NCBI RefSeq assembly: GCF_000971195.1
Contig: NZ_BBLZ01000004.1
Location: 124,001 to 188,000 of the forward strand
Length of the DNA stretch: 64,000 nucleotides
Direction: 5' to 3'
Source of the DNA: Demequina soli
GTDB taxonomy: Bacteria; Actinomycetota; Actinomycetes; Actinomycetales; Demequinaceae
Position 1 is the stretch's first letter; every line of letters starts with the position of its first letter. A program made the translations under genes and the position numbers. Of the stretch, positions 4,242 to 23,557 are shown piece by piece. The notes beneath the pieces were generated by a model that was not told the origin of the DNA, did not search any database, and was given only the letters and a program-made list of their open reading frames with translations.

Positions 4242-5367
4242 CCTTTTCGAGGCCGAGGCGACCAGCACCACGTCTCTTGACCTGCGCCGCCTCCAGCGGC
4301 AGAAGCGACGCGCCGCGCGCCGGCGCATGACGCTGCTCGTCACCGCGGTGGCCGTCGTGCTGCTCGCGATCGGCGGCTCGATCGCGCTGAACTTCATCAA
4401 GGGGATCGAGACCAGCGGGTCCTCCACGGCGGCGGACTACGACGGCCCGGGCCAGGGCAACGTCCAGGTCATCATCGAGCCCGGCGCGTCCGGTGCGGAC
4501 ATCGCCGCGACGCTGTACGACGCGGGCGTCATCGCGTCCAAGCAGGCGTTCATCGCCGCCGCGAACGACAACCCCGACTCGACGTCGATCACCGCGGGCT
4601 ACTACTTCATGCACAAGGAGATGAAGGCGGAGTACGCGGTCGACGCGCTGCTCGACCCGGCCAACCGGGACGTGCGCTCCATCACCATCCCCGAGGGCAA
4701 GACGCTCGACTACTACTACGAGAAGATCGCCAACCTCACCGGTAGCAGCAAGGACGACGTGAAGGCGGCCGCGAAGGACACCGAGGCGCTCGGCCTGCCC
4801 GCCGAGGCGAACGGCAACCTCGAGGGCTGGCTGTTCCCGTCGACCTACGAGTTCAACCCCGGCGTCACCCCGCAGGAGGTGATGACCAAGATGATCGCGC
4901 AGACCGTCAAGGTGCTCGACGACTACGGCGTCGCCCCCGAGGACCGCGAGCGGATCCTCACCGTGGCGTCGCTCGTGGAGCGCGAGGCGAAGCTGGACGA
5001 GGACCGTCCCAAGATCGCGTCGGTCATCTACAACCGCCTCGACGCGGACATGAAGCTGGGGCTCGACTCGACCGTGAAGTACCTCTCGCCGTCGGACGGC
5101 GTGTGGACCACGGACGAGGAGCGCAACATCGACTCCCCGTATAACACGTACCTGTACAAGGGCCTCCCGCCCGGCCCCATCGCGGGTCCCGGCGAGGCGT
5201 CGATCAAGGCGGCCGTCAAGCCGGCCCAGACCGACTTCCTGTTCTTCGTGACCGTCAACCTCGACACGGGCGAGACGCTGTACGCCAAGGACTACCCGAC
5301 GCACCAGGCGAACGTGGCGAAGCTGCAGGAGTGGTACGCAGCGCACTCCGACTCGTCCGGCAACTGA
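4231..5367 (+). CDS. mltG: Endolytic murein transglycosylase MltG
   Basis: Membrane-anchored lytic transglycosylase that cleaves nascent peptidoglycan glycan strands and limits chain length. The 378-aa product has a short basic cytoplasmic tail, one transmembrane helix at about residues 33-52, a LysM-like region and the YceG catalytic domain. The catalytic glutamate is in ASLVEREA (about residue 250), and SPYNTYLYKGLPPGPI is the family signature. AAGGGGA lies immediately before the ATG pair at 4231/4234, so either could start. It overlaps the ruvX stop by 11 bp. Confidence 0.95.
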   Translation: MMTDLFEAEATSTTSLDLRRLQRQKRRAARRRMTLLVTAVAVVLLAIGGSIALNFIKGIETSGSSTAADYDGPGQGNVQVIIEPGASGADIAATLYDAGVIASKQAFIAAANDNPDSTSITAGYYFMHKEMKAEYAVDALLDPANRDVRSITIPEGKTLDYYYEKIANLTGSSKDDVKAAAKDTEALGLPAEANGNLEGWLFPSTYEFNPGVTPQEVMTKMIAQTVKVLDDYGVAPEDRERILTVASLVEREAKLDEDRPKIASVIYNRLDADMKLGLDSTVKYLSPSDGVWTTDEERNIDSPYNTYLYKGLPPGPIAGPGEASIKAAVKPAQTDFLFFVTVNLDTGETLYAKDYPTHQANVAKLQEWYAAHSDSSGN

Positions 5368-5371
5368 TCCC

Positions 5372-6217
5372 GTGAGCGGCGTGACCGGCATGCGCCGGGC
5401 GGGCGTGCTCGGCCACCCCATCGGGCACTCGCTGTCGCCGGTGCTGCACCGGGCGGCGTACGCCTCTCTTGGTCTCGAGTGGTCGTATGACGCGTACGAC
5501 GTTCCGTCCGGTTCTCTCGCCTCCTTCCTGGCGGGGATGGACGATGCGTGGGCCGGGTTGTCGTTGACCATGCCGCTCAAGGTCGAGGCGCTGCCGCTCA
5601 TGGACTTCACCGAGTCCATGGCCAAGCTGGTCGGCGCGATCAACACGGTGCTGGTGCAGTCCGTGGGCGGCGGCCGCCAGCTCGTGGGCGCCAACACGGA
5701 CGTCTGGGGCATCCAGGCGGCGTTCCGTGAGGCCGGGGTGTCCTCGGCCGGCTCGGGGCTGATCATCGGTGGGGGAGCGACGGCGACCTCCGCGATGGCG
5801 GCGCTCGGCGCGCTCGGCGTGACCGCTCCCTACGTGGCCGTGCGGTCGCGCGGGCGTGCGGGCGGGCTGCTGCGCGCCGCCACCAAGATGGGGGTGACGC
5901 CGCGGTTCATCGACCTCGCGGACGTCGCGACGCTCGCTCCGTCGCTCGACGTCGCCGTGTCCACCGTGCCGGCGGACGCCGGGGCGACCCTCGCATCGTC
6001 CCTGGTCACCGTGCGTGAGGGCGCGGCGCTGCTCGACGCGATCTACGACCCGCTGGTGACGCCGCTCGGGGCCGCGTGGGCCGCGCGGGGCGGGACGCGG
6101 ATCGGCGGCGAGCGCATGCTGCTGCACCAGGCGGGGGAGCAGGTGCGCCTCATGACCGGTCATGACGCGCCGCTCGACGCGATGGGCGCCGCGCTCGACA
6201 CGACACTCCGGAGGTAG
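5372..6217 (+). CDS. aroE: Shikimate dehydrogenase
   Basis: Reduces 3-dehydroshikimate to shikimate with NADPH. The product is 281 aa. The substrate-binding signature GHPIGHSLSPVLH is near the N-terminus, the catalytic lysine is in TMPLK (Lys70) with the partner aspartate in GANTD, the Rossmann glycine loop is GGGATATSA, and HQAGEQVRLMTG near the end is typical of the family. GTG 5372 begins 5 nt after the mltG stop; ATG 5390 is an alternative and no strong Shine-Dalgarno decides between them. It is separated from aroC-aroK-aroB by the pilus locus that follows. Confidence 0.93.
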   Translation: MSGVTGMRRAGVLGHPIGHSLSPVLHRAAYASLGLEWSYDAYDVPSGSLASFLAGMDDAWAGLSLTMPLKVEALPLMDFTESMAKLVGAINTVLVQSVGGGRQLVGANTDVWGIQAAFREAGVSSAGSGLIIGGGATATSAMAALGALGVTAPYVAVRSRGRAGGLLRAATKMGVTPRFIDLADVATLAPSLDVAVSTVPADAGATLASSLVTVREGAALLDAIYDPLVTPLGAAWAARGGTRIGGERMLLHQAGEQVRLMTGHDAPLDAMGAALDTTLRR

Positions 6218-6292
6218 CCGCTTCAGTTCCTCGATGTTCTGCCGATGGTACTTTCGGCACGAATTTCCATCGAGGGTCATGAGGGGGCGCCG

Positions 6293-7951
6293 GTGAAGCA
6301 GCTGGGAACCATCCTGCTGGAGGGCGGCGCGCTCAGCGAGGAGCAGCTCGTCGAGGCGATCGACGCGCAGCAGGAGCGGGGCCAGTCGCTCGGCCGCACG
6401 CTCGTCGAGATGGGGTACATCTCCGAGGGGCAGCTGGTGCGCGCGCTCGCCGCGCAGGTGGGCATGGATTTCATCGAGCTCGCCGACTATCCCGTCGACC
6501 GCGCGGCCGTCGCGCTGGTGCCGGGCGCCGTCTGCCGGCGCCACATGGTGCTGCCGGTCGAGGTCGGGGACGGCCTGATCAAGGTCGCGATGTCCAACCC
6601 GGGCAACGTGGTCGCGGTCGACGACATCTCCACCATCACGCGCATGCGGGTCATCCCGGTGGTCGCGGCGCACGACGACGTCGCCAACGCGATCGACAGG
6701 TACTGCCGCTCCGACGCGGAGATGGAGGACCTGCAGGAGCACATCGAGACCGATGTGGACGTGGCGGACGAGGACCTGTCCTCGGCGGCGGACGACGACG
6801 CGCCCATCGTGCGGTTCGTCAACCTGCTCATCACGCAGGCCGTGCAGGACCGCGCGTCCGACATCCACATCGAGCCGGCCGAGCACGACTTCCGGGTGCG
6901 GTACCGCATCGACGGCGTGCTCCACGAGATGCAGCGCGGCCCCAAGGCGATCCAGGGCGGCGTGATCTCGCGCCTGAAGATCATGTCGGACATCGACATC
7001 GCGGAGCGACGCAAGCCGCAGGACGGCCGCCTGTCCGTCAACCACCAGGGCCGCAAGATCGACCTCCGTGTCGCGACGCTGCCGACGGTGTGGGGCGAGA
7101 AGGTCGTCATGCGTATCCTCGACAACTCGACGGCGAGGCTCGCGCTCGAGGACCTGGGCATCCGCGAGCGGAACCAGGCGATCTACTCCGAGGCGTACAC
7201 CAAGCCCTACGGCATGATCCTGGTCACCGGCCCGACGGGTTCGGGCAAGTCGACCACGCTGTACGCGACGCTCAACCAGATCTCGCGGCCCGAGGTCAAC
7301 GTCATCACGGTCGAGGACCCTGTCGAGTACCGCATCCCCGGCATCAACCAGGTGCAGGTCAACCCGAAGGCGGGACTGACGTTCGCGGCCGCGCTGCGGT
7401 CCATCCTGCGTGCCGACCCGGACGTGGTGCTCGTCGGCGAGGTCCGTGACGGCGAGACCGCGCAGATCGCGATCGAGGCGGCGCTCACCGGTCACCTGGT
7501 GCTGTCGACGCTGCACACCAACGACGCGCCGTCCGCGATGACGCGACTCATCGAGATGGACATCGAGCCGTTCCTCGTGGGGTCCGCGATCGACTGCGTG
7601 GTCGCCCAGCGACTCGCGCGCCGGCTGTGCGACCACTGCTGCGTGGAGCAGACCGTGAACGCCTCCGATCTGCCGCCGGCGATCAAGTGGGGGAGCGGCG
7701 CCGTGCCGACCATCATGCGGCCCGAGGGCTGCCAGCGGTGCTCCAACACGGGCTACCGCGGGCGCGTGGCGCTGCACGAGATCATGCCGATCAACGAGGA
7801 GATCGAGCGGCTGACGGTGGCGCGAGCTTCCTCGGCGGAGATCGGCCACGCGGCCGTGGACGCGGGCATGGAGACGCTCATCCAGGATGGGTGGGCGAAG
7901 GTGCTCGAGGGAACCACGTCCCTTGAAGAGCTTCTCCGAGTTGTGAAATAA
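6293..7951 (+). CDS. pilB: Type IV pilus assembly ATPase PilB (GspE family)
   Basis: Cytoplasmic hexameric ATPase that drives pilin polymerisation. The 552-aa product has the MshEN/GspE N-terminal domain (LGTILLEGGALSEEQL), then the ATPase with Walker A GPTGSGKST (about residue 313), the Asp box ITVEDPVEYRIPG, Walker B-type DPDVVLVGEVRDGETA and His box TGHLVLSTLHTN. A four-cysteine zinc site (CDHC, later CQRC) is typical of PilB/GspE and absent from PilT. GTG 6293 is chosen because GAGGGGG precedes it at 6281-6287 and the domain starts right there; ATG 6245 would add 16 unconserved residues. First gene of the pilus locus. Confidence 0.95.
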   Translation: MKQLGTILLEGGALSEEQLVEAIDAQQERGQSLGRTLVEMGYISEGQLVRALAAQVGMDFIELADYPVDRAAVALVPGAVCRRHMVLPVEVGDGLIKVAMSNPGNVVAVDDISTITRMRVIPVVAAHDDVANAIDRYCRSDAEMEDLQEHIETDVDVADEDLSSAADDDAPIVRFVNLLITQAVQDRASDIHIEPAEHDFRVRYRIDGVLHEMQRGPKAIQGGVISRLKIMSDIDIAERRKPQDGRLSVNHQGRKIDLRVATLPTVWGEKVVMRILDNSTARLALEDLGIRERNQAIYSEAYTKPYGMILVTGPTGSGKSTTLYATLNQISRPEVNVITVEDPVEYRIPGINQVQVNPKAGLTFAAALRSILRADPDVVLVGEVRDGETAQIAIEAALTGHLVLSTLHTNDAPSAMTRLIEMDIEPFLVGSAIDCVVAQRLARRLCDHCCVEQTVNASDLPPAIKWGSGAVPTIMRPEGCQRCSNTGYRGRVALHEIMPINEEIERLTVARASSAEIGHAAVDAGMETLIQDGWAKVLEGTTSLEELLRVVK

Positions 7952-8038
7952 GCCACATCTCTACAGACACGCCACGTATCTACCGATATTTCTATGCGAA
8001 GGACCCGCTAGATTGCGGTTCCAGTTGAGGGAGGACAA

Positions 8039-9685
8039 GTGAACGAGTTCACTCCGGGCGCAGAGCCCTGGCGGCCGACGCCGCCGCCCGCGGCTCCGGT
8101 CGCCGGCGCTGAGGGTGCTGGTTCCGTGGCTCCTTCCACGCCTGGTGCCGGGGTTCCTTCGACGCCGGCCGCAGGCGTTCCCGCGGCCGCTCAGACGGTG
8201 CCGTCCCTCTCGCCTCAGGGTCCTCCCGCGGCGCCCATCCTCCCGACTGGTCCGTCGCTGCACAGCGAGCCTCACAGCTCGGCCGTGCGCCGCGCATCGT
8301 TCCTCGACGAGCGTCGGCCGCTGGCGGCGCAGGCTTCGGGTGCTCCTGGCCCGGCCCCCGCGCCTGTCTCCGCGCCGGCTCCCGTCGGAGCGCCGGTGGC
8401 GTCCGGTGCACCGACCACGACGCAGACGCTCGACGCCGCCGCGGCCTTTGCGGCCGCTGCGCAGGAGCACCTAGGTGCCGGCGCCTCGTTCATGCCGGCG
8501 CCCGAGAAGGAGCCCGAGGCACCGAAGAAGCCCGAACCGCCGCAGGCGAAGCCAGCCGCACAGGTGACGCCGGGGCGCAACCGCATCGGCGCGAACAACG
8601 AGCGCCAGGATGGCGACCTCGACATCAACAATGCGCTGCGCGCGATGTTGAAGACCGGCGCTTCCGACCTTCACCTGACCACTGGCGTGCCGCCGATGGT
8701 TCGCCTCGATGGTGGCCTCACCCCGCTCGAGGGGTTCGCGCAGCTCAACCCGGAGAGCCTTCACCGCTCGCTGTTCGGCATCCTGACCCAGGCCCAGCGC
8801 GAGCAGTTCGAGGAGGAGCTCGAGCTCGACTTCTCGTACTCGGTGGTCGGCGAGGCGCGCTTCCGCGTCAACCTGTACCGCCAGCGCGACTCGCTTGGTG
8901 CGGCGTTCCGTGTCATTCCTTACGAGATCAAGCCGCTCGAGGCGCTCGGCATCCCCGAGGTCGTGGGCAAGTTCGCCCAGCTGCCGCGTGGTCTGGTGTT
9001 GGTGACTGGGCCGACCGGATCGGGCAAGTCGACGACGCTTGCGTCGCTCGTCGACCTCGCGAACCGCTCGCGCAGCGCGCACATCATGACCGTCGAGGAC
9101 CCGATCGAGTTCCTCCACCGTCACAAGCGCTCGATCGTGAACCAGCGCGAGGTGGGCGCGGACACGCGGTCCTTCGCCAAGGCGCTCAAGCACGTGCTAC
9201 GTCAGGACCCGGACATCATCCTTATCGGTGAGATGCGTGACATCGAGACGATCTCCGTCGCGCTCACCGCCGCGGAAACCGGACACCTCGTGTTCGCGAC
9301 GCTGCACACGCAGTCCGCGCCGCAGACGATGGACCGCATCATCGACGTGTTCCCGCCCGAGCAGCAGGGTCAGGTCCGCTCGCAGCTCGCCGCAGCGATC
9401 CAGGGCGTGATGTGCCAGACCCTGCTGAAGCGTGCGGACGGACCCGGCCGGGCGGTCGCGGTCGAGGTCATGGTCGCGACCCCGGGTATCCGCAACCTCA
9501 TCCGTGAGGGCAAGACCCACCAGATCTTCACGTCGATGCAGGGCGGCGCGTCGCAGGGTATGCAGACCATGGACTACCACCTGGCTGAGCTGGTCAAGTC
9601 CGGCAAGGTCACCTACGAGAACGCCGTCGAGATGGCGCAGTCCTTCGAAGAGTTCAACCGCCTCTGCGGTCGGCACGGCCGGTAG
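8039..9685 (+). CDS. pilT: Type IV pilus retraction ATPase PilT with long Pro/Ala-rich N-terminus
   Basis: ATPase that depolymerises pili, giving retraction, twitching and DNA uptake in other bacteria. The last ~355 residues are a standard PilT: ASDLHLTTGVPPMVRLDG, Walker A GPTGSGKST (about residue 324), VEDPIEFLH, DPDIILIGEMRD and ETGHLVFATLHT. No tetracysteine site is present, unlike PilB. The first ~190 residues are low-complexity Pro/Ala/Ser/Gly with no fold that I recognise, making the 548-aa protein much longer than the ~350 aa typical of the family. GGGAGG at 8029-8034 supports GTG 8039. It is followed 14 bp later by pilC. Confidence 0.93.
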   Translation: MNEFTPGAEPWRPTPPPAAPVAGAEGAGSVAPSTPGAGVPSTPAAGVPAAAQTVPSLSPQGPPAAPILPTGPSLHSEPHSSAVRRASFLDERRPLAAQASGAPGPAPAPVSAPAPVGAPVASGAPTTTQTLDAAAAFAAAAQEHLGAGASFMPAPEKEPEAPKKPEPPQAKPAAQVTPGRNRIGANNERQDGDLDINNALRAMLKTGASDLHLTTGVPPMVRLDGGLTPLEGFAQLNPESLHRSLFGILTQAQREQFEEELELDFSYSVVGEARFRVNLYRQRDSLGAAFRVIPYEIKPLEALGIPEVVGKFAQLPRGLVLVTGPTGSGKSTTLASLVDLANRSRSAHIMTVEDPIEFLHRHKRSIVNQREVGADTRSFAKALKHVLRQDPDIILIGEMRDIETISVALTAAETGHLVFATLHTQSAPQTMDRIIDVFPPEQQGQVRSQLAAAIQGVMCQTLLKRADGPGRAVAVEVMVATPGIRNLIREGKTHQIFTSMQGGASQGMQTMDYHLAELVKSGKVTYENAVEMAQSFEEFNRLCGRHGR

Positions 9686-9699
9686 CGGGGGAGGGCATC

Positions 9700-10944
9700 A
9701 TGGCAGCTGCCGCCGCAACCGCGGTCAAGAAGTTCGCGTACGAGGCGCGGGACGGTTCGGGCAAGGTGCGCAAGGACACGATGGAGGCGCCGAACTCGCA
9801 GGCGGTCGCGGCTCGCCTTCGCGAGCGTGGGTTCACGGTGCTTCAGGTCGAGGAGGCCGGTGGCACCGGCCTCAATATGGAGCTCACGATCCCCGGCCTC
9901 GGGGAGAAGATCGGTCTCAAGGACATCGCCATCATGTCGCGTCAGCTCGCGACGATGATCGGCGCAGGTCTCTCGTTGATTCGCGCGATGACGATCCTCA
10001 CGGAGCAGACCGAGAACAAGGCGTTGCAAAAAGTGTTGTCGGAGGTCCGCACCGATGTCGAGACAGGTAAGGCGTTCTCGGTGGCGCTTGCGCGACACCC
10101 GCAGGTGTTCCCTCCTCTCATGATCAACATGGTGAAGGCCGGCGAGATCGGCGGATTCCTCGACCAAGTGCTCGTCTCGATCGCCGAGAACTTCGAGACC
10201 GAGGTGGCGCTCCGCGGAAAGATCAAGTCCGCAATGACGTATCCGGTTGTGGTTTTCTTCATCGCGGTGCTCGCCGTGACGGCGATGCTCCTCTTCATCG
10301 TTCCCGTGTTCGCAGACATGTTCAAGAATCTCGGTGGCGAGTTGCCGCTGCCGACGCAGATCTTGGTGTCACTTTCCGCAATCCTCAAGGTTGGCGCCGT
10401 GCCCTTCGCGATCGCAATCTTCGTTGGCGCAGTGTGGTGGAAGAAGAACAAGAACCGGCTTGAGGTGCGCAATAGGGTCGAACCGGTCTACCTCAAGCTT
10501 CCGGTATTTGGTGGGTTGATCCAGAAGATTGCGGTGTCGCGTTTCACACGCAACTTTGGCGCGATGGTGCGATCTGGTGTTCCGATTCTCCAGGCGCTCG
10601 ACATCGTCGGACAGGCGTCGGGCAATATCGTGATCGAGCGCGCGACTAAGGACGTGCAGGACTCAGTGCGCCGTGGTGAGTCTCTCGCGGGCCCGCTCGC
10701 AAAGCACACCGTATTCCCGCCGATGGTCGTCCAGATGATCGCCGTGGGTGAGGACACGGGCGCACTGGACACGATGCTGGACAAGATCGCCGACTTCTAC
10801 GACCAGGAGGTCGAGTCGACGACTGAGCAGCTCACGAGCCTCATCGAGCCCCTGATGATCGCCTTCCTCGGCACGATCATCGGTGGCATGGTCATCGCAC
10901 TTTATATGCCGATCTTCAAGGTCTTCGACCTGATCGGCTCGTGA
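9700..10944 (+). CDS. pilC: Type IV pilus inner-membrane platform protein PilC
   Basis: Polytopic platform on which PilB and PilT act. The 414-aa product carries two T2SSF domains: the first around residues 75-200 (MSRQLATMIGAGLSLIRAM), the second around residues 275-400 (FTRNFGAMVRSGVPILQAL). Hydrophobic helices lie near residues 180-205, 225-245 and 375-400. The start ATG 9700 follows GGGGGAG at 9687-9693. A perfect 20-bp palindrome lies just beyond the stop, before the pilin gene. Confidence 0.95.
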   Translation: MAAAAATAVKKFAYEARDGSGKVRKDTMEAPNSQAVAARLRERGFTVLQVEEAGGTGLNMELTIPGLGEKIGLKDIAIMSRQLATMIGAGLSLIRAMTILTEQTENKALQKVLSEVRTDVETGKAFSVALARHPQVFPPLMINMVKAGEIGGFLDQVLVSIAENFETEVALRGKIKSAMTYPVVVFFIAVLAVTAMLLFIVPVFADMFKNLGGELPLPTQILVSLSAILKVGAVPFAIAIFVGAVWWKKNKNRLEVRNRVEPVYLKLPVFGGLIQKIAVSRFTRNFGAMVRSGVPILQALDIVGQASGNIVIERATKDVQDSVRRGESLAGPLAKHTVFPPMVVQMIAVGEDTGALDTMLDKIADFYDQEVESTTEQLTSLIEPLMIAFLGTIIGGMVIALYMPIFKVFDLIGS

Positions 10945-10953
10945 CAGAGTCTT

Positions 10954-10973
10954 CCGTTCGGCTAGCCGAACGG
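10954..10973. repeat. Perfect 20-bp palindrome between pilC and the major pilin gene
   Basis: CCGTTCGGCTAGCCGAACGG reads the same on both strands. In RNA it would fold as an 8-bp stem with a CTAG loop. There is no T-run, so it may be an mRNA stability or processing element that raises pilin expression, or a protein-binding site. It lies 70 bp before the pilin Shine-Dalgarno. Confidence 0.7.
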
Positions 10974-11042
10974 CAGGTGAGCGGGGTCTGAGGGCCTCAC
11001 TCATTTCAACCAATAGAGAAGACAGTGAAAGGCAGGAGCGAA

Positions 11043-11486
11043 ATGATCGCTCGCATTCAGCAGGCCATGGCCAAGAAGGACGACAAGGGCTTCACCCTCG
11101 TCGAGCTTCTTGTCGTCATCATCATCATCGGCATCCTTGCCGCGATTGCCATCCCCCTTTACCTCAACCAGCAGAACAAGGCGAAGGACTCGGCGGCCGA
11201 GGCAGACCTCAACACGCTTCGCACCGCCGTGGTCTCTGCGATGACGGAAAACCCGCAGGCGACGGCCGTGACCGTTACCGGTTCCGGCCAGGTCGTGACG
11301 ATCAAGGTCACCGCGACGCCGGCCGTTGCGGACACCACGGTGAACCTTTCGCCTGGCAATGTCCTCGGCACCACCAACACCGTGAGCATTCCCAACGCGA
11401 CGGTAACGCTGTCCGTCAAGTCGCCCACCGGCACCACGTTCTCGATGGACGAGACTGGCAAGGTCACCACGACTCCGTCGGCGTAG
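11043..11486 (+). CDS. pilA: Major type IV pilin (type IVa prepilin)
   Basis: Probable main structural subunit of the pilus. The 147-aa prepilin has a 16-residue basic leader ending ...KKDDKG, then the N-methylphenylalanine signature FTLVELLVVIIIIGILAAIA, with cleavage predicted between Gly16 and Phe17 and the conserved glutamate at mature position 5. The rest is a small Thr/Val-rich globular domain with no cysteines. ATG 11043 is chosen because AGGAG lies at 11034-11038; GTG 11025 lies upstream of that site. A strong hairpin follows the stop. Identity as major rather than minor pilin is inferred from size, position and the flanking hairpins. Confidence 0.9.
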   Translation: MIARIQQAMAKKDDKGFTLVELLVVIIIIGILAAIAIPLYLNQQNKAKDSAAEADLNTLRTAVVSAMTENPQATAVTVTGSGQVVTIKVTATPAVADTTVNLSPGNVLGTTNTVSIPNATVTLSVKSPTGTTFSMDETGKVTTTPSA

Positions 11487-11520
11487 CTCTCGGATTTCGA
11501 GTTCGCGACCAGCTGACGTG

Positions 11521-11553
11521 GACGGGGTCCCGTGTTCGTCACGGGGCCCCGTC
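11521..11553 (+). terminator. Strong hairpin after the pilin gene
   Basis: GACGGGGTCCCGTG (11521-11534) pairs with CACGGGGCCCCGTC (11540-11553) as a 14-bp stem with one G-T pair and loop TTCGT. No T-run follows, so it could be a partial terminator or a 3' stabiliser that makes pilin mRNA more abundant than the minor-pilin mRNA downstream. Confidence 0.65.
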
Positions 11554-11588
11554 TGCTCGGCCAATTGTTGGTACGAAGGGGGTGCGTT

Positions 11589-12041
11589 TTGAGCAAGCGC
11601 GACAACGATCGGGGCTTCAGCCTCACCGAGGTTATGGTCGCCATGGTTATCCTCCTGATCGTGATGACCGCCATGATCAGTGCGCTCATTCTTGCCCTTA
11701 CGAAGACTTCGGCCGCAGCCACAAGGGCGACCGCCGCAGAGGCGGTGCAGGCTCGTATTGAGGACGCGCGATCCAACGCCGCCTCGGGCTCGTGCACCGT
11801 AATGCAGGGCGTGGTTACTAAGACCACGGTCGTGTACGACGGCCGCAAGGTGCCGATCACCATTAAGGGCGCGGTAGCGCAGCCGAACGGCGATTCGTGC
11901 AAGGTTGCGGCGGCAGGCGATGATGGCGATCCCGCTCAAATTCTTCGCGTGACCGTCACCGCGACCACGACAGTGGCTGGCCTAAACAATCCCCTCGCGC
12001 AGACGACCACCGACCTATTCATGAAGTACGAGGCCCCGTGA
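11589..12041 (+). CDS. Minor type IV prepilin (PilV-like)
   Basis: Class III signal peptide protein of 150 aa. The leader MSKRDNDRG is followed by FSLTEVMVAMVILLIVMTAM, with Glu at position 5 after predicted cleavage. The mature domain has two cysteines (one in GSCTV, one in DSCKV), which could form a disulfide outside the cell. TTG 11589 is chosen because AAGGGGGT at 11576-11583 precedes it; the open frame extends back to 11532 but would run through the hairpin. Minor pilins of this kind prime pilus assembly; in Neisseria the minor pilin ComP also binds DNA. Nothing visible here shows DNA binding. Confidence 0.85.
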   Translation: MSKRDNDRGFSLTEVMVAMVILLIVMTAMISALILALTKTSAAATRATAAEAVQARIEDARSNAASGSCTVMQGVVTKTTVVYDGRKVPITIKGAVAQPNGDSCKVAAAGDDGDPAQILRVTVTATTTVAGLNNPLAQTTTDLFMKYEAP

Positions 12042-12661
12042 TGAACCGCCTTCGCGACGACGATGATGGCTTTACTCTCGCAGAGCTGATCGCATACATG
12101 GTGGTACTCGGGATCCTCATGACGATGGCATCGATGATCTTCCTACAGATCATCGAGAATGAGCGTTACGTGCGCGCGACGGCGCAGGCCAACAACACCG
12201 CTCAGATTCTCTACAAGGCCGCCGAGTACGACTTGCGCAACGCGAAGACCGCGCGCGTGCTCTGGGACGGCCAGCTTCTTCTTCTCTCGACGCGACAGGC
12301 GTCTACGGCGGCGGACGACAACGGTGTCTGCGTTGCCTACTTCTTCGACACCGCGAAGCAGGAGGTGCGCCGCAGCAGCAGCCTGGCGTCCACCAACACG
12401 ATGGCTGCGCGCGATGCCGCGTCGCTTACGGCTCTTCGGTCTCTCACCGCGAACTGGACCATCTACGGCGACGATACGGCCCCGATCATCTCTGGATCGA
12501 CCGGTCTTCCAGTGTTCTCGCCGGCCAATGTGGTCGTGACATCGCCCGGCTCGGTGACCGTGTCGCTCCGCTTCGAGACTTTCAAAAACCGCAAGCCCGT
12601 CGAGTTCGCGAAGACCATCGCGCTCCGGCCTCAGCCCGATCTCACGAAGATCTGCTTCTAG
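12041..12661 (+). CDS. Minor type IV prepilin (PilW/GspJ-like)
   Basis: Prepilin of 206 aa with acidic leader residues DDDDG directly before FTLAELIAYMVVLGILMTMA, cleavage predicted after that glycine, Glu at +5. The mature domain is larger than in the preceding minor prepilin and ends ...LTKICF. The ATG shares its A with the upstream TGA stop; a GTG at 12038 would add one residue. The acidic leader just before the cleavage site is unusual, since most leaders are basic, but the major pilin here also has KKDDKG, so it seems characteristic of this system. Confidence 0.85.
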   Translation: MNRLRDDDDGFTLAELIAYMVVLGILMTMASMIFLQIIENERYVRATAQANNTAQILYKAAEYDLRNAKTARVLWDGQLLLLSTRQASTAADDNGVCVAYFFDTAKQEVRRSSSLASTNTMAARDAASLTALRSLTANWTIYGDDTAPIISGSTGLPVFSPANVVVTSPGSVTVSLRFETFKNRKPVEFAKTIALRPQPDLTKICF

Positions 12662-12673
12662 GAAGGCATGACC

Positions 12674-14542
12674 ATGGCACGCACGCGACTGCAGAGCCGC
12701 CACGACGACGCCGGCGTGGCGCTCGTTATGGTGCTCGGAATCGTATCGGTCAGCGTCATTCTGCTCACGACGTTGGCGCTGACGACCATCTTCACGCTGA
12801 AGACGACGGCCCGGACCAAGGCAGAGATGGCGGTTCTCGCCTCCGCCGATGCGGGCATCGACTTCGTGTTCGGCCAACTCGACGGTAAGACGTTCGCACA
12901 GCTGTCGACGGTGTGCTCGCCTGCCTACAACTACCTGGTCAACAATGACACGGTTACGGTGAAGACGCTTTACACCCTCGACGATGGCACGAAGACGAAC
13001 TGCCCCAGCGCGACCGACATCGTGACGGTCCTCCGTGTGACTTCCACCGCAGTTTCCGGCAACAAGACGCTTGACGGTCCGCTCAAGCGCACGGTGGTGG
13101 CTACTTTCGCCACCACCCCGCCGTCGGCAACGCTTGACAAGGCGATCTTCTCCGACGCCTCGCTCGACCTGATCAACAACACGCAGGTCGTCGAGAGCGC
13201 GCCCGGCGTTCTCGACGCGAACGTGTACTCCAACGGTCAGATCACGATCCGCACTCAGGTGAACGTCGACGGCCAGATCTACTCGGCGACCGGCGACGTG
13301 ACGGTCGACAACAAGTCTTTGCTGAAGGGCACGTTGTGGGCGGCGGGTCGTGTCACGCTCGCGACCCAGGCAACTGTGCAGGGCGATGTCTACTCGGCAA
13401 GCCCGCTCGTCAGCACGTCGACGCCCGCCGTGAGCTTGGACTCGTCCAACACGATTGTGACGGGCGACGTGCTGGCGAACGGCACGATTGTCTCGCAGGG
13501 CCGCACGGGTAACTCGGGCGGCATTCTGGGGATTGCGTTCTCCCGTGTCGGGCAGGTTCTGCTCCAGAACGATGCAACCGTGGGAGGCAGCATCTACGCC
13601 GGTGGCAACATCACGCTTGCGAAGTCGACGGTCGGCGGCGATGTGATCTCGACCGGCGGAGACGTCGTCGCAAGCGGGACGCCGAACTTGGTTGCTGGCA
13701 AGGTCGTGGCCAAGGGCGCGGTGCCGGCAACCAGCTACTTCTCTACTCCGAAGCCCACCAGCCTCACCGGAAACACGGCCTCAGATTTCCCCACGGGAAC
13801 CGCGATCAATCCTTCCACCACGCAGTTCCAGGCTGGTGTCGGTTATCCCTACCTCATTGTTGCCCCGAAGCGTGAAAGTCTCCCGAAGGACGGCATGGCG
13901 CTCGCCGACATCAAGGCATGGCCCGGCTGGACGCTTGACCCGTCCACGTCGTGCGACAGCAGCGATCCGATGAACTTCATCCGGGACAACCCGAATGGCA
14001 TCACGGGTCCGCGGATGATCGTGTTCACCTGCGCCTCGGGGAAGCCGGTCAATATCGATGGCACTGGAAATAAGACGATTACTCTTTCAAACGATCTTGC
14101 GCTCGTATCAACTACGGGTTTCTATCAGACGAACAATGTGACCTACACGGGTACCAACGCTACTGATCCGTGGACGCTCTTCTGGCTTGTGCCGTCCGAC
14201 TCGCTCGGCGTGGATTGGAAGCCGGCAGCGGTCTCGGGGCAGTACTACCCGGTGTGCACGACGACGCCGACCGACTCGAAGAACCTGTATTGGGACCAGA
14301 TGAAGGTCACCAAGCTCGTGTGGTTCTCCTACACGCCGTGCACCGTCGAGTTCAAGAACGGCAACAACCTGACCGGTAATACGGACCCTATGACTGGCCA
14401 GATCTACGCGGGCGCGTTCAAGGCCGGCGCTGCGACGAAGATCCAGATGACGAAGGTCGCGATCCCGTCGCTCGGTGGAGACCCGCTCCCGACCGATCCT
14501 GCGGCCGTGCGTTTGACCTCCCGATTCGACCTGCGCGACTGA
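12674..14542 (+). CDS. Very large PilX/GspK-like prepilin with predicted beta-helical passenger
   Basis: A 622-aa protein beginning MARTRLQSRHDDAG then VALVMVLGIVSVSVILLTTL, the PilX_N-type prepilin start. After predicted cleavage at Gly, position 5 is Met, not Glu; absence of Glu5 is characteristic of GspK-type tip subunits. Residues of about 150-350 are built of short repeats such as ANVYSNGQITIRTQ, GQIYSATGDVTVD, GSIYAGGNITLAK and GDVISTGGDVVAS, the pattern of a right-handed beta-helix (bactofilin-like). The C-terminal ~250 residues contain several cysteines. ATG 12674 is favoured over 12668 because AGGAAGG ends 7 nt before it. I infer a pilus-tip adhesin or initiator; surface target unknown. 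Confidence 0.8.
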   Translation: MARTRLQSRHDDAGVALVMVLGIVSVSVILLTTLALTTIFTLKTTARTKAEMAVLASADAGIDFVFGQLDGKTFAQLSTVCSPAYNYLVNNDTVTVKTLYTLDDGTKTNCPSATDIVTVLRVTSTAVSGNKTLDGPLKRTVVATFATTPPSATLDKAIFSDASLDLINNTQVVESAPGVLDANVYSNGQITIRTQVNVDGQIYSATGDVTVDNKSLLKGTLWAAGRVTLATQATVQGDVYSASPLVSTSTPAVSLDSSNTIVTGDVLANGTIVSQGRTGNSGGILGIAFSRVGQVLLQNDATVGGSIYAGGNITLAKSTVGGDVISTGGDVVASGTPNLVAGKVVAKGAVPATSYFSTPKPTSLTGNTASDFPTGTAINPSTTQFQAGVGYPYLIVAPKRESLPKDGMALADIKAWPGWTLDPSTSCDSSDPMNFIRDNPNGITGPRMIVFTCASGKPVNIDGTGNKTITLSNDLALVSTTGFYQTNNVTYTGTNATDPWTLFWLVPSDSLGVDWKPAAVSGQYYPVCTTTPTDSKNLYWDQMKVTKLVWFSYTPCTVEFKNGNNLTGNTDPMTGQIYAGAFKAGAATKIQMTKVAIPSLGGDPLPTDPAAVRLTSRFDLRD

Positions 14543-14552
14543 GATCCGCTCG

Positions 14553-15338
14553 ATGACAACGATCTTCATCGTCGGCGCCGTGCTTGCCGGGCTCGCGCTG
14601 GGCTCCTTCGCGAACGTGCTGATCTACCGGGTGCCTCAGGGGCTCTCGATCGTCCGCCCACCCAGCGCATGCCCACGCTGTGGTCACGAGATTCGAGCAC
14701 GCCACAACGTGCCAGTTCTCGGTTGGATCTGGCTGAAGGGACGATGCGCGGACTGCTCGGCGCCGATCAGCCCGCGATATCCGTTGGTTGAGTTCGCCAT
14801 GGGGGCGACGTTCGGCATCGTGACCTGGCTCACCGGCCCGGGAGCCAACACCGTCGTACTGCTCACGCTGGTCTTCTACGGTCTGGTGCTCGCGGCGATC
14901 GACCTGGAAACCCGACGGCTCCCGAATCCACTGACGGCGGCCTTCGCGATCACGTTGGCTGTTGTCGTCCTCGCTACGGCCGTCGCGACAGGGGACTGGT
15001 CGGACGCGCTTCGCTCAGTCATCGGTGCGGTGGCGTTGGGTCTGCTTTACGGGATCGCCTTTGTCGCGTATCCGAAGGGCATGGGTTTCGGCGACGTCAA
15101 GCTCGCGCCGTCGCTTGGCGCGGTGCTCGGCTTCCTCGGGTGGCCCCAGCTGATCGTCGGGGCCTTTGCCGCATTCATCTGGGGAGCGGTGGCGGGAGTC
15201 ATCGCGATGCGCCGCGCACGGAAGTCGCGAGGCGTAGCGATTCCCTTCGGCCCATGGATGGTGGTGGGTGCTCTGACCGGGGTGGTCGTGGGCGTACCCG
15301 TGGCCACGTGGTACCTCGATGTGGTGCTGGTGCAGTAG
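14553..15338 (+). CDS. pilD: Prepilin peptidase / N-methyltransferase
   Basis: Polytopic aspartyl protease that removes the prepilin leaders and methylates the new N-terminus. The 261-aa product has an N-terminal zinc module (CPRCGHEIRARHNVPVLGW, then CADC) belonging to the methylase half, and the two catalytic aspartates in IDLETRRLPN and GFGDVKLA. About seven to eight hydrophobic helices are visible. ATG 14553 starts 11 nt after the preceding stop. All four upstream prepilins are its expected substrates. Confidence 0.95.
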   Translation: MTTIFIVGAVLAGLALGSFANVLIYRVPQGLSIVRPPSACPRCGHEIRARHNVPVLGWIWLKGRCADCSAPISPRYPLVEFAMGATFGIVTWLTGPGANTVVLLTLVFYGLVLAAIDLETRRLPNPLTAAFAITLAVVVLATAVATGDWSDALRSVIGAVALGLLYGIAFVAYPKGMGFGDVKLAPSLGAVLGFLGWPQLIVGAFAAFIWGAVAGVIAMRRARKSRGVAIPFGPWMVVGALTGVVVGVPVATWYLDVVLVQ

Positions 15339-15397
15339 CACTTGAGCAGCTTCGGCCATCGGCCGATAAGGAATGAAGTAGTAGAGGAGGGAACGCT

Positions 15398-16456
15398 GTG
15401 GGTACAAGAACTGTCGCGATCGACATCGGTGCTTCGGCAGTCCGTGTTGCCGAGATCGAGCTTGGCAACGGGGCAGATCCGCGCGATGGCGCGACGTTGC
15501 ACGCGTTTGGCGAGGCGGCCGTGCCCGCTGGCGTCATGCGAGACGACGAGATCCTCGAGCCGGCGACTCTGAGCGCCGTCGTCAAGGAGGCCTGGGCCGC
15601 CGCGAAGCCGTCAACCAAGCACGTGACTTTGGGCTTGGGCCTCCCTTCGGTCGTGGTCCGCGAGGTCGACATCCCGGCGCAGCCGATGGACAAGGTGCGC
15701 GAATCGCTCGCCTTCCACGTCCAGGATCAGCTGCCCATGGCTGCCGACGAGGCCATCCTCGACTTCTATCCCACTCAGGAGATCGAGGCACAGGGTGGTG
15801 CCACGCTTCGGGGCCTGCTGGTCGCTGCGCCCAGGTCGGTGGTGCGCGACATCGTCGAGGTCATCGACCGGGCAGGACTGTCTGTCGCGTGCGTCGATCT
15901 GTCGGCCTTCGGCATCTGGCGGGCGGGGTGCCGGGACAACTTCACGAGCGCGAATGTCGCCTTCGTCAACGTCGGCGCCTCGACCACCACGGTGGTCGTG
16001 TCGCACGCGGGTGCGCCGCGCATCGTCCGTGCTCTCTCCCAGGGAAGCCACGATGCGAATCGCGCTCTCGAGTCCGCTCTGCGGGGTACCCCGGTCAACG
16101 CCGAGGCGCTCAAGCGTGAGGTCGGCATGGATCTCAACGTCGGCGCGGACAAGCGCGGACTCGCGGAGGCTTCCGCGCATGCGATCTCGCCGATGATCGA
16201 GGCGGTACGCAACACGCTCGTGTACTTCGCCAGCAGCAATCCCGGAGGTGCGCTGCAGCAGGTGGTGCTTACCGGCGGTGGCAGCCAGATGCGCGGATTG
16301 GGCCAGGCGCTGGCGAGTGCGACGCGCCTGCCGGTCATGATCGGGGATCCGCTCTCGGGTCTTCGGATCGGGAAGAAGGTGCAGCTCGGCGGCGCCGAGA
16401 CGCGGACCGCGGAGCTCGCGACGGTGATCGGGCTCGCGATGAGGAGTGCAAAGTGA
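15398..16456 (+). CDS. pilM: Type IV pilus actin-like protein PilM
   Basis: Cytoplasmic actin-fold ATP-binding protein that links the assembly machinery to the membrane through PilN. The 352-aa product shows VAIDIGASAVRVAEI at the N-terminus (phosphate 1), AFVNVGASTTTVVV in the middle (phosphate 2) and VVLTGGGSQMRGL near the C-terminus (adenosine motif). GTG 15398 follows a GAGGAGGGA Shine-Dalgarno. It overlaps pilN by a GTGA junction. Confidence 0.93.
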   Translation: MGTRTVAIDIGASAVRVAEIELGNGADPRDGATLHAFGEAAVPAGVMRDDEILEPATLSAVVKEAWAAAKPSTKHVTLGLGLPSVVVREVDIPAQPMDKVRESLAFHVQDQLPMAADEAILDFYPTQEIEAQGGATLRGLLVAAPRSVVRDIVEVIDRAGLSVACVDLSAFGIWRAGCRDNFTSANVAFVNVGASTTTVVVSHAGAPRIVRALSQGSHDANRALESALRGTPVNAEALKREVGMDLNVGADKRGLAEASAHAISPMIEAVRNTLVYFASSNPGGALQQVVLTGGGSQMRGLGQALASATRLPVMIGDPLSGLRIGKKVQLGGAETRTAELATVIGLAMRSAK

Positions 16457-17214
16457 ATGCGGTTGCGGAAAGGTACGGAGCGTCCACGCTCGCGGGTGTC
16501 AACCTCATCCCTCGGGAGATCGCCGCACGTAGGACGATGCGCGCGGTTCAGTTCGGCGCGGTCGTGGCGATCCTGATCGCCATCGCCGGCGTTGGCCTGC
16601 TGTTCGCCGGCGCCGCATTCGCGAAGATGTCCGCCTCCGACGAGCGCGACACCGCTGCCCAGGACGAGAGTGCTGCCGTCGCCGCACGCGACGCGAAGGC
16701 GGGTGTGTTCACCGACGTCCAGGTGCGCGAGCAGGAGGAGTACACGCTTGCACAGATCGGCTACTCCGAGATCGCGTACTCGCAGTTGACGGCGTCTGTG
16801 CAGGCCGTGTTCGACGCGGACACGGGCCTCGATGGGTTCACGATCCAGGGTCCCAGTGCCTCCGGGACGGTCGCGGGCTCCGGGGATACGAGCATCTATC
16901 CCAATGGCGTGGGAACCATCCAGATCACCGCTCGCGCGACCACCCAGCAGAAGGCGACGGAGCTCATCGCCAAGCTCGAGGCCGTGCCCGGACTCGCGGC
17001 CGTGCGCGGCACCAGCGAGGCCTTCGCGGTCGATGGCGCGGACACGTATTACGGCGTTTCGGTCACCGGTGTGATCACGGCGAACCTGTTCACCGGTCGC
17101 CTGATGCCGACGGATGGGATCTCGCAGGCAAACGAGCTGATGATGTCCTCAGTCGAGCCCAGCCCTGAGCCGAGCGCGTCTGCCTCGGCCACGACCCAGT
17201 CTCAGGAGGGCTGA
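16453..17214 (+). CDS. pilN: Type IV pilus alignment protein PilN
   Basis: Bitopic membrane protein, 253 aa. The cytoplasmic N-terminus carries the PilM-binding motif VNLIPREIA (consensus NLLP, about residues 16-24), followed by one transmembrane helix at about residues 34-56, a coiled-coil stretch and a ferredoxin-like extracytoplasmic domain. The tail is Ser/Pro/Ala/Thr-rich. The GTG overlaps the pilM TGA, implying translational coupling. Confidence 0.88.
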   Translation: MNAVAERYGASTLAGVNLIPREIAARRTMRAVQFGAVVAILIAIAGVGLLFAGAAFAKMSASDERDTAAQDESAAVAARDAKAGVFTDVQVREQEEYTLAQIGYSEIAYSQLTASVQAVFDADTGLDGFTIQGPSASGTVAGSGDTSIYPNGVGTIQITARATTQQKATELIAKLEAVPGLAAVRGTSEAFAVDGADTYYGVSVTGVITANLFTGRLMPTDGISQANELMMSSVEPSPEPSASASATTQSQEG

Positions 17215-17215
17215 C

Positions 17216-18106
17216 ATGCTGAACTCTCGCTACGCCCCCGTCATTGCCTTGGCGGTACTCGGCATCGTCCTTGTTGCGGTGCTGGGGTGGTTCCTGGCGA
17301 TCAAGCCCCAGTTCGACGAGAGGGACTCCCTCAAGTCTCAGACGGCCACCATTCGCGGCAACATCGATCAGGTCAACATGGCCTCCGCGAAGATCGATGA
17401 GTATGCGGCTCAGCTCCAGGGTGACGATTCGGTCGCCAAGGAGATCGCGCTCAACGCGCCCTCGGAGCTCGATCTGCCGGCGTTCCGCGCGCGCCTCTGG
17501 AAGGCTTTCAACGACACGAAGATCGAGCTCGTGTCGTACTCCCAGGGCGGCGAGACGCTTCTGCCGCCGCTTGAGGTGGACCCATCCGCTCTCGTGGCAT
17601 CGCAGGTCGCGGCCCTGTTCCAGACCGGGCCCGTGTCGGCGGCCTCGTCGGTGGTCCCGGACCCCGCAGCGACGGCAGCCGCAACGGGAACGGACGGAGC
17701 GGCTGACCCGACGGCGGTCGTCGGTACCGATGGTTGGGCGCCCGCGGTCACCGCCCCGACAGAGTCGACGCTCGCGAGCGCTCAGGTGTTCAAGGTGCCG
17801 TTCACCCTTGTCGTGGCTGGCTCGCCGCAAGAGACCTACGACTTCCTCGCGTTCATGTCAGATCCCGATCAGCCCGTCTTCGAGGTGGAGGCGATCACGC
17901 AGACTGCGCGTCCGTCAGGGTCCGGCACGATTCCTGGCGTGTCCGACGCCAAGGACGGCGACGTGTCGACGACCATCACCGGGTCGCTGTTCGTGTACAA
18001 CCCGACGCTCGAGCTGCACGACCAGGAGCTCGGCAAGGGGGCCAAGACGCCGGGTGAGTCGGCGTTCCACAAGCCGCCGAACTCGCCAGCTCAGCCGGGT
18101 GCCTGA
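17216..18106 (+). CDS. pilO: Type IV pilus alignment protein PilO
   Basis: Partner of PilN: one N-terminal transmembrane helix at about residues 8-29, a coiled coil (residues about 35-70) and a globular domain interrupted by a long Ala/Thr/Pro-rich insertion (about residues 135-185). The product is 296 aa, longer than the usual ~210. The assignment rests on position after PilM-PilN and on topology more than on sequence motifs. It ends the pilus locus and is followed by a hairpin. No pilP lipoprotein or pilQ secretin follows, as expected for a single-membrane cell. Confidence 0.82.
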   Translation: MLNSRYAPVIALAVLGIVLVAVLGWFLAIKPQFDERDSLKSQTATIRGNIDQVNMASAKIDEYAAQLQGDDSVAKEIALNAPSELDLPAFRARLWKAFNDTKIELVSYSQGGETLLPPLEVDPSALVASQVAALFQTGPVSAASSVVPDPAATAAATGTDGAADPTAVVGTDGWAPAVTAPTESTLASAQVFKVPFTLVVAGSPQETYDFLAFMSDPDQPVFEVEAITQTARPSGSGTIPGVSDAKDGDVSTTITGSLFVYNPTLELHDQELGKGAKTPGESAFHKPPNSPAQPGA

Positions 18107-18122
18107 ACCAGCACGCCGTTAG

Positions 18123-18165
18123 CGGGGTGGCTGCTCTCACGAGCGGCCACCCCGTTCCGCTGTTT
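18123..18165 (+). terminator. Terminator at the end of the pilus locus
   Basis: CGGGGTGGCTGCTC (18123-18136) pairs with GAGCGGCCACCCCG (18141-18154) through a TCAC loop, with one wobble pair. A broken T-rich tail (TTCCGCTGTTT) follows. Confidence 0.75.
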
Positions 18166-18215
18166 CTGCATCTCACCATCCGGACGGACCGTCCACTCGT
18201 GGAAGAATGACGCCC

Positions 18216-19400
18216 ATGCTTCGATGGCTCACCGCAGGCGAATCCCATGGTCCCGCCCTTGTCGGCACGCTCGAGGGCCTCCCGGCCGGCGTCGAGATCA
18301 CCAGCAGCGAGATCCAGGCCGCGCTCGCCCGACGCCGCCTTGGCGCCGGCCGCGGCGCGCGCATGCAGTTCGAGCAGGACCAGGTCACCATCCTCGGCGG
18401 CGTGCGCCACGGCCTCAGCCAGGGCGGTCCCGTCGCCGTCATGGTGGGCAACACGGAGTGGCCCAAGTGGGAGACCGTGATGTCCGCGGACCCGGTCGAC
18501 GCCGAGGAGCTCACCGGTGCCCGTGCCGCGGCCCTCACCCGCCCGCGCCCCGGGCACGCAGATCTCGTCGGCATGACCAAGTACGGCTTCGACGACGCCC
18601 GCCCCGTGCTCGAGCGCGCCTCCGCCCGCGAGACCGCGGCCCGTGTCGCGCTCGGCCAGGTCGCCGAGAACTTCCTCGAGCAGGCCGCCGGCATCCGCCT
18701 CGTCGCGCACACGGTTCAGGTGGGCCCCGTCGTGGTCCCCGACGACGCGCCGCTGCCGCCCGCCGACGCGACGCCCGCGCTCGACGCGGACCCAATCCGC
18801 TGCTTCCACGCCGCGACCTCCGCCGCCATGCTGGCCGAGATCGACGACTGCCAGAAGGCCGGCGACACCCTCGGCGGCGTCGTCGAAGTGGTCGCCTACG
18901 GCGTCCCCGTCGGCGTCGGCAGCCACGTTCACTGGGACCGCCGCCTCGACGCGCGCCTCGCGGCCGCCCTCATGGGCATCCAGGCCATCAAGGGCGTCGA
19001 GGTCGGCGACGGCTTCCGCACCGCCGCGCGTCGCGGATCCGAGGCTCACGATGAGATCGAGTACGGCCAGGACGGCGTCACCCGTCGCACCAACCGCGCA
19101 GGCGGCGTCGAGGGTGGCATGACCAACGGCGAGCCGCTGCGTGTACGCGCGGCCATGAAGCCCATCAGCACCGTGCCGCGTGCGCTCGACACCATCGACA
19201 CCGCGACGGGGGAGGCCGCCAAGGCCATCCACCAGCGCTCAGACGTGTGCGCTGTCGCGCCCGCTGCCGTGGTCGCTCAGGCGATGGTCGCGCTCACGCT
19301 CGCGGACTCGCTGCTCGAGAAGTTCGGCGGCGACTCCGTCGCCGAGGTGCGCCGCAACATCGAGTCCTACGTCGCCGCGATCCCGGAGCACCTGCGCTGA
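18216..19400 (+). CDS. aroC: Chorismate synthase
   Basis: Converts 5-enolpyruvylshikimate 3-phosphate to chorismate using reduced FMN. The 394-aa product opens with the family signature [16 protein letters not shown] and contains [22 protein letters not shown] and the C-terminal [27 protein letters not shown] 18216 is chosen over 18207 because GGAAGA at 18201-18206 is well spaced for it and the family begins with this methionine. It overlaps aroK by one base. Confidence 0.96.
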
Positions 19401-19924
19401 TGGGCCCGCGTGCGGTCTTGATCGGTCCTCCGGGCTCGGGCAAGTCGACAGTCGGCGCGGAGCTCGCGTCCCTGTGGGGTGTCGCTCGCCGCGACACCGA
19501 CACCGACATCGAGCAGCGCGCGGGGAAGTCCATTCCCGACGTCTTCCTCGAGGACGGCGAGTCGCGCTTCCGCGAGATCGAGCGCGAGGCGGTGGCCGAT
19601 GCGCTGGCCGAGCACGATGGCGTCCTCGCCCTGGGCGGGGGGGCGATCCTCGCCGAGGGGACGCAGGCGCTCCTCGAGGCCTACGCGTCGGCGGGCGGCA
19701 CGGTCGTCTTCCTCGACGTGAGCCTCGCCGCCGCCGCGCCGCGCGTGGGCCTCAACGCCTCGCGGCCGCTGCTCGTGGGCAACCCGCGCGCGCAGTGGGT
19801 CGCGCTCATGGACGCGCGCCGGCCCATCTACGAGCGGCTCGCGACCGTCTCGATCCTCACCGACAAGTCGACGCCGCCCGAGGTGGCCGCGCAGATCGAC
19901 GCCGCCGCAAAGGAGCGCGCATGA
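19400..19924 (+). CDS. aroK: Shikimate kinase
   Basis: Phosphorylates shikimate with ATP. The 174-aa product has a P-loop [11 protein letters not shown] at the N-terminus, the shikimate-binding [14 protein letters not shown], the GGGAIL turn and RPLL in the lid region. The ATG shares a base with the aroC stop and the gene ends in an ATGA overlap with aroB, so aroC-aroK-aroB are translationally coupled. Confidence 0.95.
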
Positions 19925-21027
19925 CCGTCCACCGCACCATCGAGGTCGCCACCGCCGCCCCCTACACGGTGACGGTGGGGGAGAACGTTCTCGACGACGT
20001 GGCCGCGTCCGTCCCCGCCACGGCGACGCGCGTGCTGGTGGTGACGGCCGCGCCCCTGCGCCGGCACGTCGACAACCTCAAGGCGTTGCTCGACGCGCGC
20101 GGCCTCACGGTCGTCATCGCCGAGGTTCCCGACGCCGAAGAGGGCAAGACCGCCGAGGTGCTCGCCTTCTGCTGGGGCGTGCTGGGGAAGTCCGACTTCA
20201 CCCGCAGCGACATCGTCATCGGGTTCGGCGGGGGAGCGGTCACGGACCTCGCGGGCTTCGTCGCCGCCACCTGGCTGCGCGGCGTCGGGGTCATCCAGGT
20301 CCCCACCACGCTGCTCGCGATGGTCGATGCGGCGGTCGGCGGCAAGACGGGCATCAACACCACCGAGGGCAAGAACCTCGTCGGCGCGTTCCACGAGCCG
20401 ATGTCCGTGTGGTGCGACGTGCGCGCGCTCGACACGCTGCCGCGCTACGACCTGGTCGCCGGCCTTGCCGAGGTGGTCAAGTGCGGCTTCATCAGGGACG
20501 CCGGGATCCTGGCCATCGTTGAGGACAACCTCGCGCTCCTCAAGGGCGGTGGCACCGATGCGGCCATCGACGCGGAGACACGGGGGGTCCTGCTCGAGCT
20601 CATCGCGCGCGCGATCCAGGTCAAGGCCGACGTGGTCGCCGCGGACCTCAAGGAGTCCTTCCTCCGCGAGATCCTCAATTACGGCCACACGTTCGGCCAC
20701 GCGATCGAGTACACGGAGCGCTACCAGTGGCGCCATGGCTCGGCCGTGTCCGTGGGCATGGTGTTCGCCGCCGAGCTCGCGCACCTCGCGGGCCGGCTCT
20801 CCGAGCAGGACGTCGAGCGCCATCGCACGATCCTGTCCGGGCTCGGCCTGCCGACCACGTACCCCGGCCACCGTTGGGACGCCCTGTACACGGCGATGAA
20901 GCGCGACAAGAAGACCCGCGGCGACCTGCTGCGCTTCGTCGTGCTTCAAGGCATCGGCAACCCGGTGCGTCTCGAGGGCCCCGACCCGGCGCTCGTCCAG
21001 GGCGCCTACGCGGCCATCAGCTCGTAG
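19921..21027 (+). CDS. aroB: 3-dehydroquinate synthase
   Basis: Cyclises DAHP to 3-dehydroquinate; NAD+ and a divalent metal are needed. The 368-aa product shows the NAD-binding [21 protein letters not shown], the substrate-binding [20 protein letters not shown] and the metal ligands in [19 protein letters not shown] and [13 protein letters not shown] 19921 overlaps the aroK stop. Its last 11 bp overlap, tail to tail, the end of the gene on the opposite strand. Confidence 0.96.
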
Positions 21028-22954: not shown

Positions 22955-22960
22955 GCCCAG

Positions 22961-22966
22961 ATGCTA
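22961..22966 (-). promoter_or_regulatory. -10 box for leaderless expression of the membrane protein gene
   Basis: On the - strand TAGCAT is followed by CTGGGC (6 nt) and the ATG at 22954. The box and the start region also form a 7-bp inverted repeat (CTAGCAT at 22948-22954, ATGCTAG at 22961-22967). Confidence 0.5.
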
Positions 22967-23058
22967 GGGGAGGCGTGCACCAAGCCAACTGTCGCCACCC
23001 CGGCGACCCCGGCATCGTCCACCGCGCGTGCCAACCCGGCCACCGCATCGTTCCCCGA

Positions 23059-23064: not shown

Positions 23065-23071
23065 ACGGACC

Positions 23072-23515: not shown

Positions 23516-23557
23516 CGTCTGCGGACTAATCCCAGATACTTTGGTAAGGACACCCCT

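Follow-up and report, generated by a model that had tools for sequence, protein, structure and literature searches.

A modular minor pilin without Glu5, probably the tip subunit of a type IVa pilus in Demequina soli

Results

The window, by which we mean the whole stretch of 64,000 nucleotides of Demequina soli DNA analysed here, contains a complete type IVa pilus operon on the forward strand, in the order pilB, pilT, pilC, major pilin, two minor pilins, the open reading frame at 12674-14542, pilD, pilM, pilN and pilO. The first two genes carry Walker motifs found by pattern; judged by these sequences, and for the first also by its position and length, 6245..7951 is presumed to encode the pilB extension ATPase and 8039..9685 the pilT retraction ATPase. 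The gene at 9700..10944 is presumed from a direct reading of its sequence to be pilC, encoding the platform protein, and is 72-87% identical in Demequina relatives. Three prepilin genes with Glu5 follow, all of which match PF07963: the major prepilin (11025..11486; 39 bits; GFTLVELL) and two minor prepilins, in an I-like position (11532..12041; 32.8 bits; GFSLTEVM) and a J-like position (12038..12661; 23.8 bits; GFTLAELI), where the labels I and J denote position and the presence of Glu5, not orthology. The frame at 12674-14542 is the fourth and last of the prepilin genes. Downstream of it are pilD (14553..15338), encoding a prepilin peptidase with PF06750 and PF01478 above cut-off; pilM (15398..16456; TIGR01175, 134.4 bits against a cut-off of 133); a pilN-like gene (16453..17214), placed after pilM and with a weak match to part of NF045709; and a pilO/GspM-like gene (17216..18106), assigned from its position and a match to PF04612 (E 0.0013) that is under the cut-off.

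The operon sits inside a shikimate-pathway cluster (4231-24121), with aroE before it and aroC-aroK after it; by our own reading of the open reading frames, the flanks are presumably mltG-aroE upstream and aroC-aroK-aroB-aroQ-efp downstream. In a comparison that covered the downstream side as far as aroK, 15 of 16 retrieved loci have aroC 3' of the pil genes, among them those of Cellulomonas, Actinotalea and a Frankiales MAG, and the sixteenth locus ends before this point. An orphan prepilin with Glu5, GFSMVELLVVIAIIAILAAVAIPLY, is encoded on another contig (L002:1483-1899), and has no pilin neighbours in the 3 kb examined there.

The last prepilin gene encodes 622 residues on the forward strand. 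A longer open frame (12668..14542) offers a second ATG at 12668; the start at 12674 is the likelier of the two because a probable ribosome-binding site, AGGAAGG (12660..12666), lies 7 nt 5' of it. At the predicted N-terminus, MARTRLQSRHDDAG/VALVMVLGIVSVSVILLTTLALTTIF, the residues are arranged as in a class III signal peptide: a short charged leader ending in Gly (12674..12715) precedes about 20 hydrophobic residues (MARTRLQSRHDDAG/VALVMVLGIVSVSVILLTTLAL). Cleavage is expected after Gly14, and the mature protein would start VALVM, with the usual prepilin Glu at position +5 replaced by Met. The length and the Met at this position had been reported in a preliminary description of the locus, and both are correct on reading the sequence, as are the short turns that it quoted from the middle of the protein. 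Glu5 is kept by the three companion prepilins and is missing only in this product, which is also the largest of the four and the last in order, behind the I- and J-position pilins. These features strengthen the analogy with GspK drawn in that description, and the Met at +5 is consistent with the K-type exception among prepilins (PMC10191384; PMC9934059).

Searches of Pfam and NCBIfam placed no family above its cut-off for the 12674-14542 product. The N-terminus had been likened to PilX_N; the resemblance stands, while membership of PF14341 does not, as this family has no match in the protein at E<=1 (it matches 3 of 41 relatives at E<=0.01). The GspK model NF037980 scores 11.4 bits, far under its curated cut-off of 130, and we reject the label of GspK orthologue. 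Sub-cut-off scores were likewise obtained for the ice-binding family DUF3494 (PF11999; 20.6 bits against 28.7) and for bactofilin (PF04519; 20.2 bits against 27.9); membership of both is rejected, and a resemblance of fold is retained. The PilY1 family (PF05567) has no match at E<=1 in this protein or anywhere in the genome, and identity with the PilY1/PilC tip adhesin, a beta-propeller protein, is rejected.

Relatives of the protein are widespread in the phylum. Within the genus, full-length relatives with 36-47% identity are encoded by 12 of 43 further genomes, and weaker ones occur in more. A single-sequence search of the GTDB family found a relative in 28 of 47 genomes, full-length in 13 of these with the D. 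soli genome included. With a profile, relatives turn up in 79 of the 396 genomes searched in the order, and a broader profile matches 158 of 396 in the phylum; the latter count should be read as a maximum for the complete architecture, because many phylum matches cover the N-terminal helix only. When contigs were scanned with the single protein as query no relatives were found, and the alignment as query returned 16 loci. Among 41 aligned relatives Gly14 (Gly-1) is invariant, and mature position +5 is occupied by Met (16), Ala (13), Val (4), Leu (3), Thr (3) or Ser (2), never by Glu. Visual inspection of the translations of additional loci, obtained in the phylum search, likewise showed no Glu at +5. 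To the extent that pattern and tblastn scans detect each gene, the order of Glu5 pilins (one major, two minor), tip-pilin candidate and pilD is kept in relatives from Demequina, Cellulomonas, Actinotalea and a Frankiales MAG. In Cellulomonas and Actinotalea (L073, L076 and L077, at about 3370-5340) the frame of the I-position prepilin extends to some 600-640 codons, as against 169 here; judged by the length of the open frame, this subunit may be modular there.

Conservation is uneven across the operon and within the protein. In a comparison with eight Demequina relatives, identity is about 80% for PilB, PilT and PilC and about 36-40% for the minor pilins and the 12674-14542 product; the latter are the most diverged members of the operon, as expected for an exposed head. 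Within the tip-pilin candidate, mean pairwise identity is 47-56% in the helix, 38% in the beta-helix and 33% in the C-terminal body. A conserved helix and a divergent remainder fit a constrained assembly part joined to an exposed head that diverges, although this pattern is no proof of adaptation since PilO (42%) is nearly equally variable. At residues 192 and 215 (13247-13249 and 13316-13318), 39 of 41 relatives carry Cys, and the D. soli protein and its closest relative (L006) have lost both together. This joint loss suggests, from the alignment, that family members form a disulphide inside their beta-helix and that this branch lacks it.

An AlphaFold2 model made from the single sequence was unusable (pLDDT 38.7), and the 41-row alignment raised the pLDDT to 87.9, with a pTM of 0.76. 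In this model a helix at residues 13-69 includes the pilin helix alpha1 (residues 15-69; 12716..12880), which carries the Met at mature +5. It is followed by pilin-like strands (residues 85-147; 12926..13114) at 85-89, 92-102, 117-128 and 138-147, with pLDDT mostly 80-91. The regular short strands of a three-sided beta-helix come next (residues 156-346; 13139..13711; pLDDT mostly 94-98), then a C-terminal beta body (residues 410-592; 13901..14449) that shares the tapirin match described below with the beta-helix, and a last predicted strand (residues 612-620; 14507..14533), which may close the pilin sheet as in ComZ. A beta-helix-like body had been claimed from the sequence, and structure prediction had been set beforehand as the main refuting test; the confident beta-helix in the model leaves the claim standing. 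Repeats in the sequence point the same way: in residues 181-350, Gly shows periodicity at a lag of 18 (p 0.0026; p 0.06 when corrected over lags) and V/I/L at 18 residues (p 0.008). Alone, this periodicity is a suggestive sign of a beta-helix, the corrected Gly value being by itself not significant, and it is the AlphaFold2 model that settles the matter.

The top fold matches in the PDB are the tapirins 4wa0, 6n2b and 6n2c (Z 21.8, 21.3 and 20.3; rmsd 3.3-3.5 over 288-313 residues; for 4wa0, 288 residues at rmsd 3.4). The alignments span model residues 144-613 and most of the target chains, and the predicted fold is that of the tapirin C-terminal domain. In a Foldseek search against the PDB, 4wa0 alone fell below E 0.001. 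A broadened sequence profile ranked 4wa0 first among all PDB sequences (E 0.0011), with a common motif, LD-AIFS; phmmer with the single protein found no match in the PDB. Fold and marginal sequence evidence thus support the tapirins as relatives of the body.

ComZ of Thermus thermophilus (6qvi) aligns along the whole chain (Z 10.8; model residues 47-622), reaching model residue 622 and chain residue 526 at the ComZ C-terminus; the rmsd of 8.0 means that the arrangement of the ComZ domains is not reproduced. The sequence profile reaches the ComZ pilin region at E 0.11, which is not significant. A relationship to ComZ is supported by architecture, and weakly by sequence. Matches to the beta-helix were also returned by bactofilin 6rib (Z 11.9 over 99 residues; rmsd 1.6) and the ice-binding proteins 7bwy and 8x1l (Z 14-15), which share the three-sided beta-helix body but have no pilin domain. 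A viral fold library gave loose repeat matches only.

Discussion

We consider it probable that the type IVa pilus is capped by the 12674-14542 product, acting as a modular K-type minor pilin whose beta-helix serves as a polymer-binding head. In the tip complexes of type IV filaments the capping subunit has no Glu5 (PMC10191384; PMC9934059), and its missing charge cannot neutralise the N-terminus of an overlying pilin (PMC9934059). The preliminary description had placed this protein at the pilus tip, and computation supports that interpretation as far as it goes, with ComZ matched along the whole chain and no PilY1 in the genome. Monoderms lack PilY1, and their modular pilins are tip effectors that present an adhesive head (PMC9934059); the beta-helix is best read as a head for adhesion or as a receptor, standing in for PilY1.

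The sequence of events that we infer would begin with removal of the 14-residue leader by the prepilin peptidase encoded next door. The mature helix, lacking Glu5, would leave the N-terminus of any overlying pilin un-neutralised, so that nothing would stack on top, and the subunit would start and cap the filament jointly with the two neighbouring minor pilins. The beta-helix and the second beta body (residues ~150-607), presumably set in the pilin domain before the last strand as in ComZ, would project from the tip and bind an extended polymer. A polysaccharide, the type of ligand that tapirins bind, is the likeliest candidate, and DNA, which ComZ binds, is less likely. Retraction driven by PilT would then pull the cell towards the bound material.

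Comparison with known systems gives this arrangement several partial precedents. GspK, PilK and ComGG, the K-type pilins, likewise lack Glu5, come last among the prepilins, are the largest of them and join a pilin domain to an extra domain; in GspK the insert is alpha-helical (PMC6561018), in contrast to the beta-helix here. ComZ is a proposed tip pilin that binds DNA and has a beta-solenoid inserted before the last pilin strand (PMC6561018). It shares with the 12674-14542 product a large beta-solenoid on a pilin-like domain in one chain, smaller pilins as neighbours and a proposed tip position; it differs in being a DNA binder from a diderm host, whereas the host here is monoderm, and in its weak sequence relation. 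The Caldicellulosiruptor tapirins, which share the fold of the body and the LD-AIFS start motif, belong to another phylum and are described as cellulose adhesins; they are beta-helical and bind cellulose with micromolar affinity (PMC7142884). PilB and PilC of Streptococcus sanguinis provide a monoderm type IVa pilus without PilY1 in which an adhesive module is borne by a minor pilin (PMC9934059); in contrast to the present protein they keep Glu5, and their modules are vWA or lectin domains, not beta-helices (PMC9934059; PMC8179133). A point against our reading is that in the same species PilA lacks Glu5, yet is not itself the bulky adhesin (PMC9934059); loss of Glu5 and possession of a large head can thus be found in different subunits.

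The choice of ligand bears on whether this tip pilin is instead the actinobacterial counterpart of ComZ, with DNA as its ligand and a role in starting natural transformation, which we regard as unlikely. ComZ combines the same parts, a pilin and a beta-solenoid, and binds DNA (PMC6561018); its whole-chain match and the presence of a ComEC homologue in the genome both favour this reading. Against it, the match of the body to the cellulose-binding tapirins is much stronger than that to ComZ, and the mature protein has 40 K/R against 44 D/E, with 10 against 14 in the beta-helix. Charge is not decisive on DNA binding, because ComZ itself has no characteristic positive patch (PMC6561018), and the ComEC homologue is weak evidence for competence, because PF03772 also matches genomes such as E. 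coli. The stronger tapirin match and the near-neutral, slightly acidic composition together weakly favour a polysaccharide over DNA.

We think it improbable that the protein is a minor pilin located along the filament, or one dispensable for assembly, with a beta-helix that serves cell-cell contact and does not cap the tip. Such subunits exist: in N. meningitidis the minor pilins PilX and PilV occur along the length of the filament (PMC10191384), and modular pilins could occupy the shaft if their linker were flexible (PMC8179133). The family-wide loss of Glu5 and a body of >450 residues nevertheless argue against packing within the shaft, and the body may be joined again to the pilin domain through the last strand, in the manner of ComZ. 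The authors of the ComZ study hold on steric grounds that its beta-solenoid would hardly fit the pilus shaft (PMC6561018). We give hardly any credence to a membrane-anchored beta-helix protein of bactofilin-like or ice-binding-like type that is no pilin and lies in the operon by chance: the only Pfam traces in the body are indeed the bactofilin and ice-binding ones, both under cut-off, but the Gly ahead of the long hydrophobic helix is invariant (41/41), pilin-like strands follow this helix in the AlphaFold2 model, and the gene lies between minor pilins and pilD in relatives from several families.

Conclusions

Taken together, these results describe a kind of object that is already known from K-type tip pilins and ComZ; since ComZ is a close precedent, the 12674-14542 product is a further case of this kind, and the family to which it belongs is widespread and unnamed. 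What is new is how broadly it occurs in Actinobacteria, that no family model scores it above cut-off, and the link to the tapirins. According to a 2019 review, every type IV pilus that had by then been studied in Actinobacteria belonged to the Flp/Tad type (PMC6916266); a IVa-type machine with a beta-helix head is encoded by many of these bacteria. Our literature search found no study of the tip of an actinobacterial IVa-type pilus and no mention of DUF7305.

The family brings together three subjects that had been treated apart, namely a competence tip pilin, cellulose adhesins and unnamed actinobacterial pilins. We put forward tentatively, with more doubt than conviction, the wider proposal that the 12674-14542 product, ComZ and the tapirins form one superfamily of polymer-gripping beta-helix heads at pilus tips, that the tapirins are themselves tip pilins and not free adhesins, and that Actinobacteria use such a head phylum-wide in place of PilY1. 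As relatives occur in Cellulomonas and Actinotalea, a polysaccharide is the ligand to consider first. A defined, foldable head of this kind offers a direct route to what actinobacterial pili grip, whether plant polymers, chitin, cell wall or DNA.
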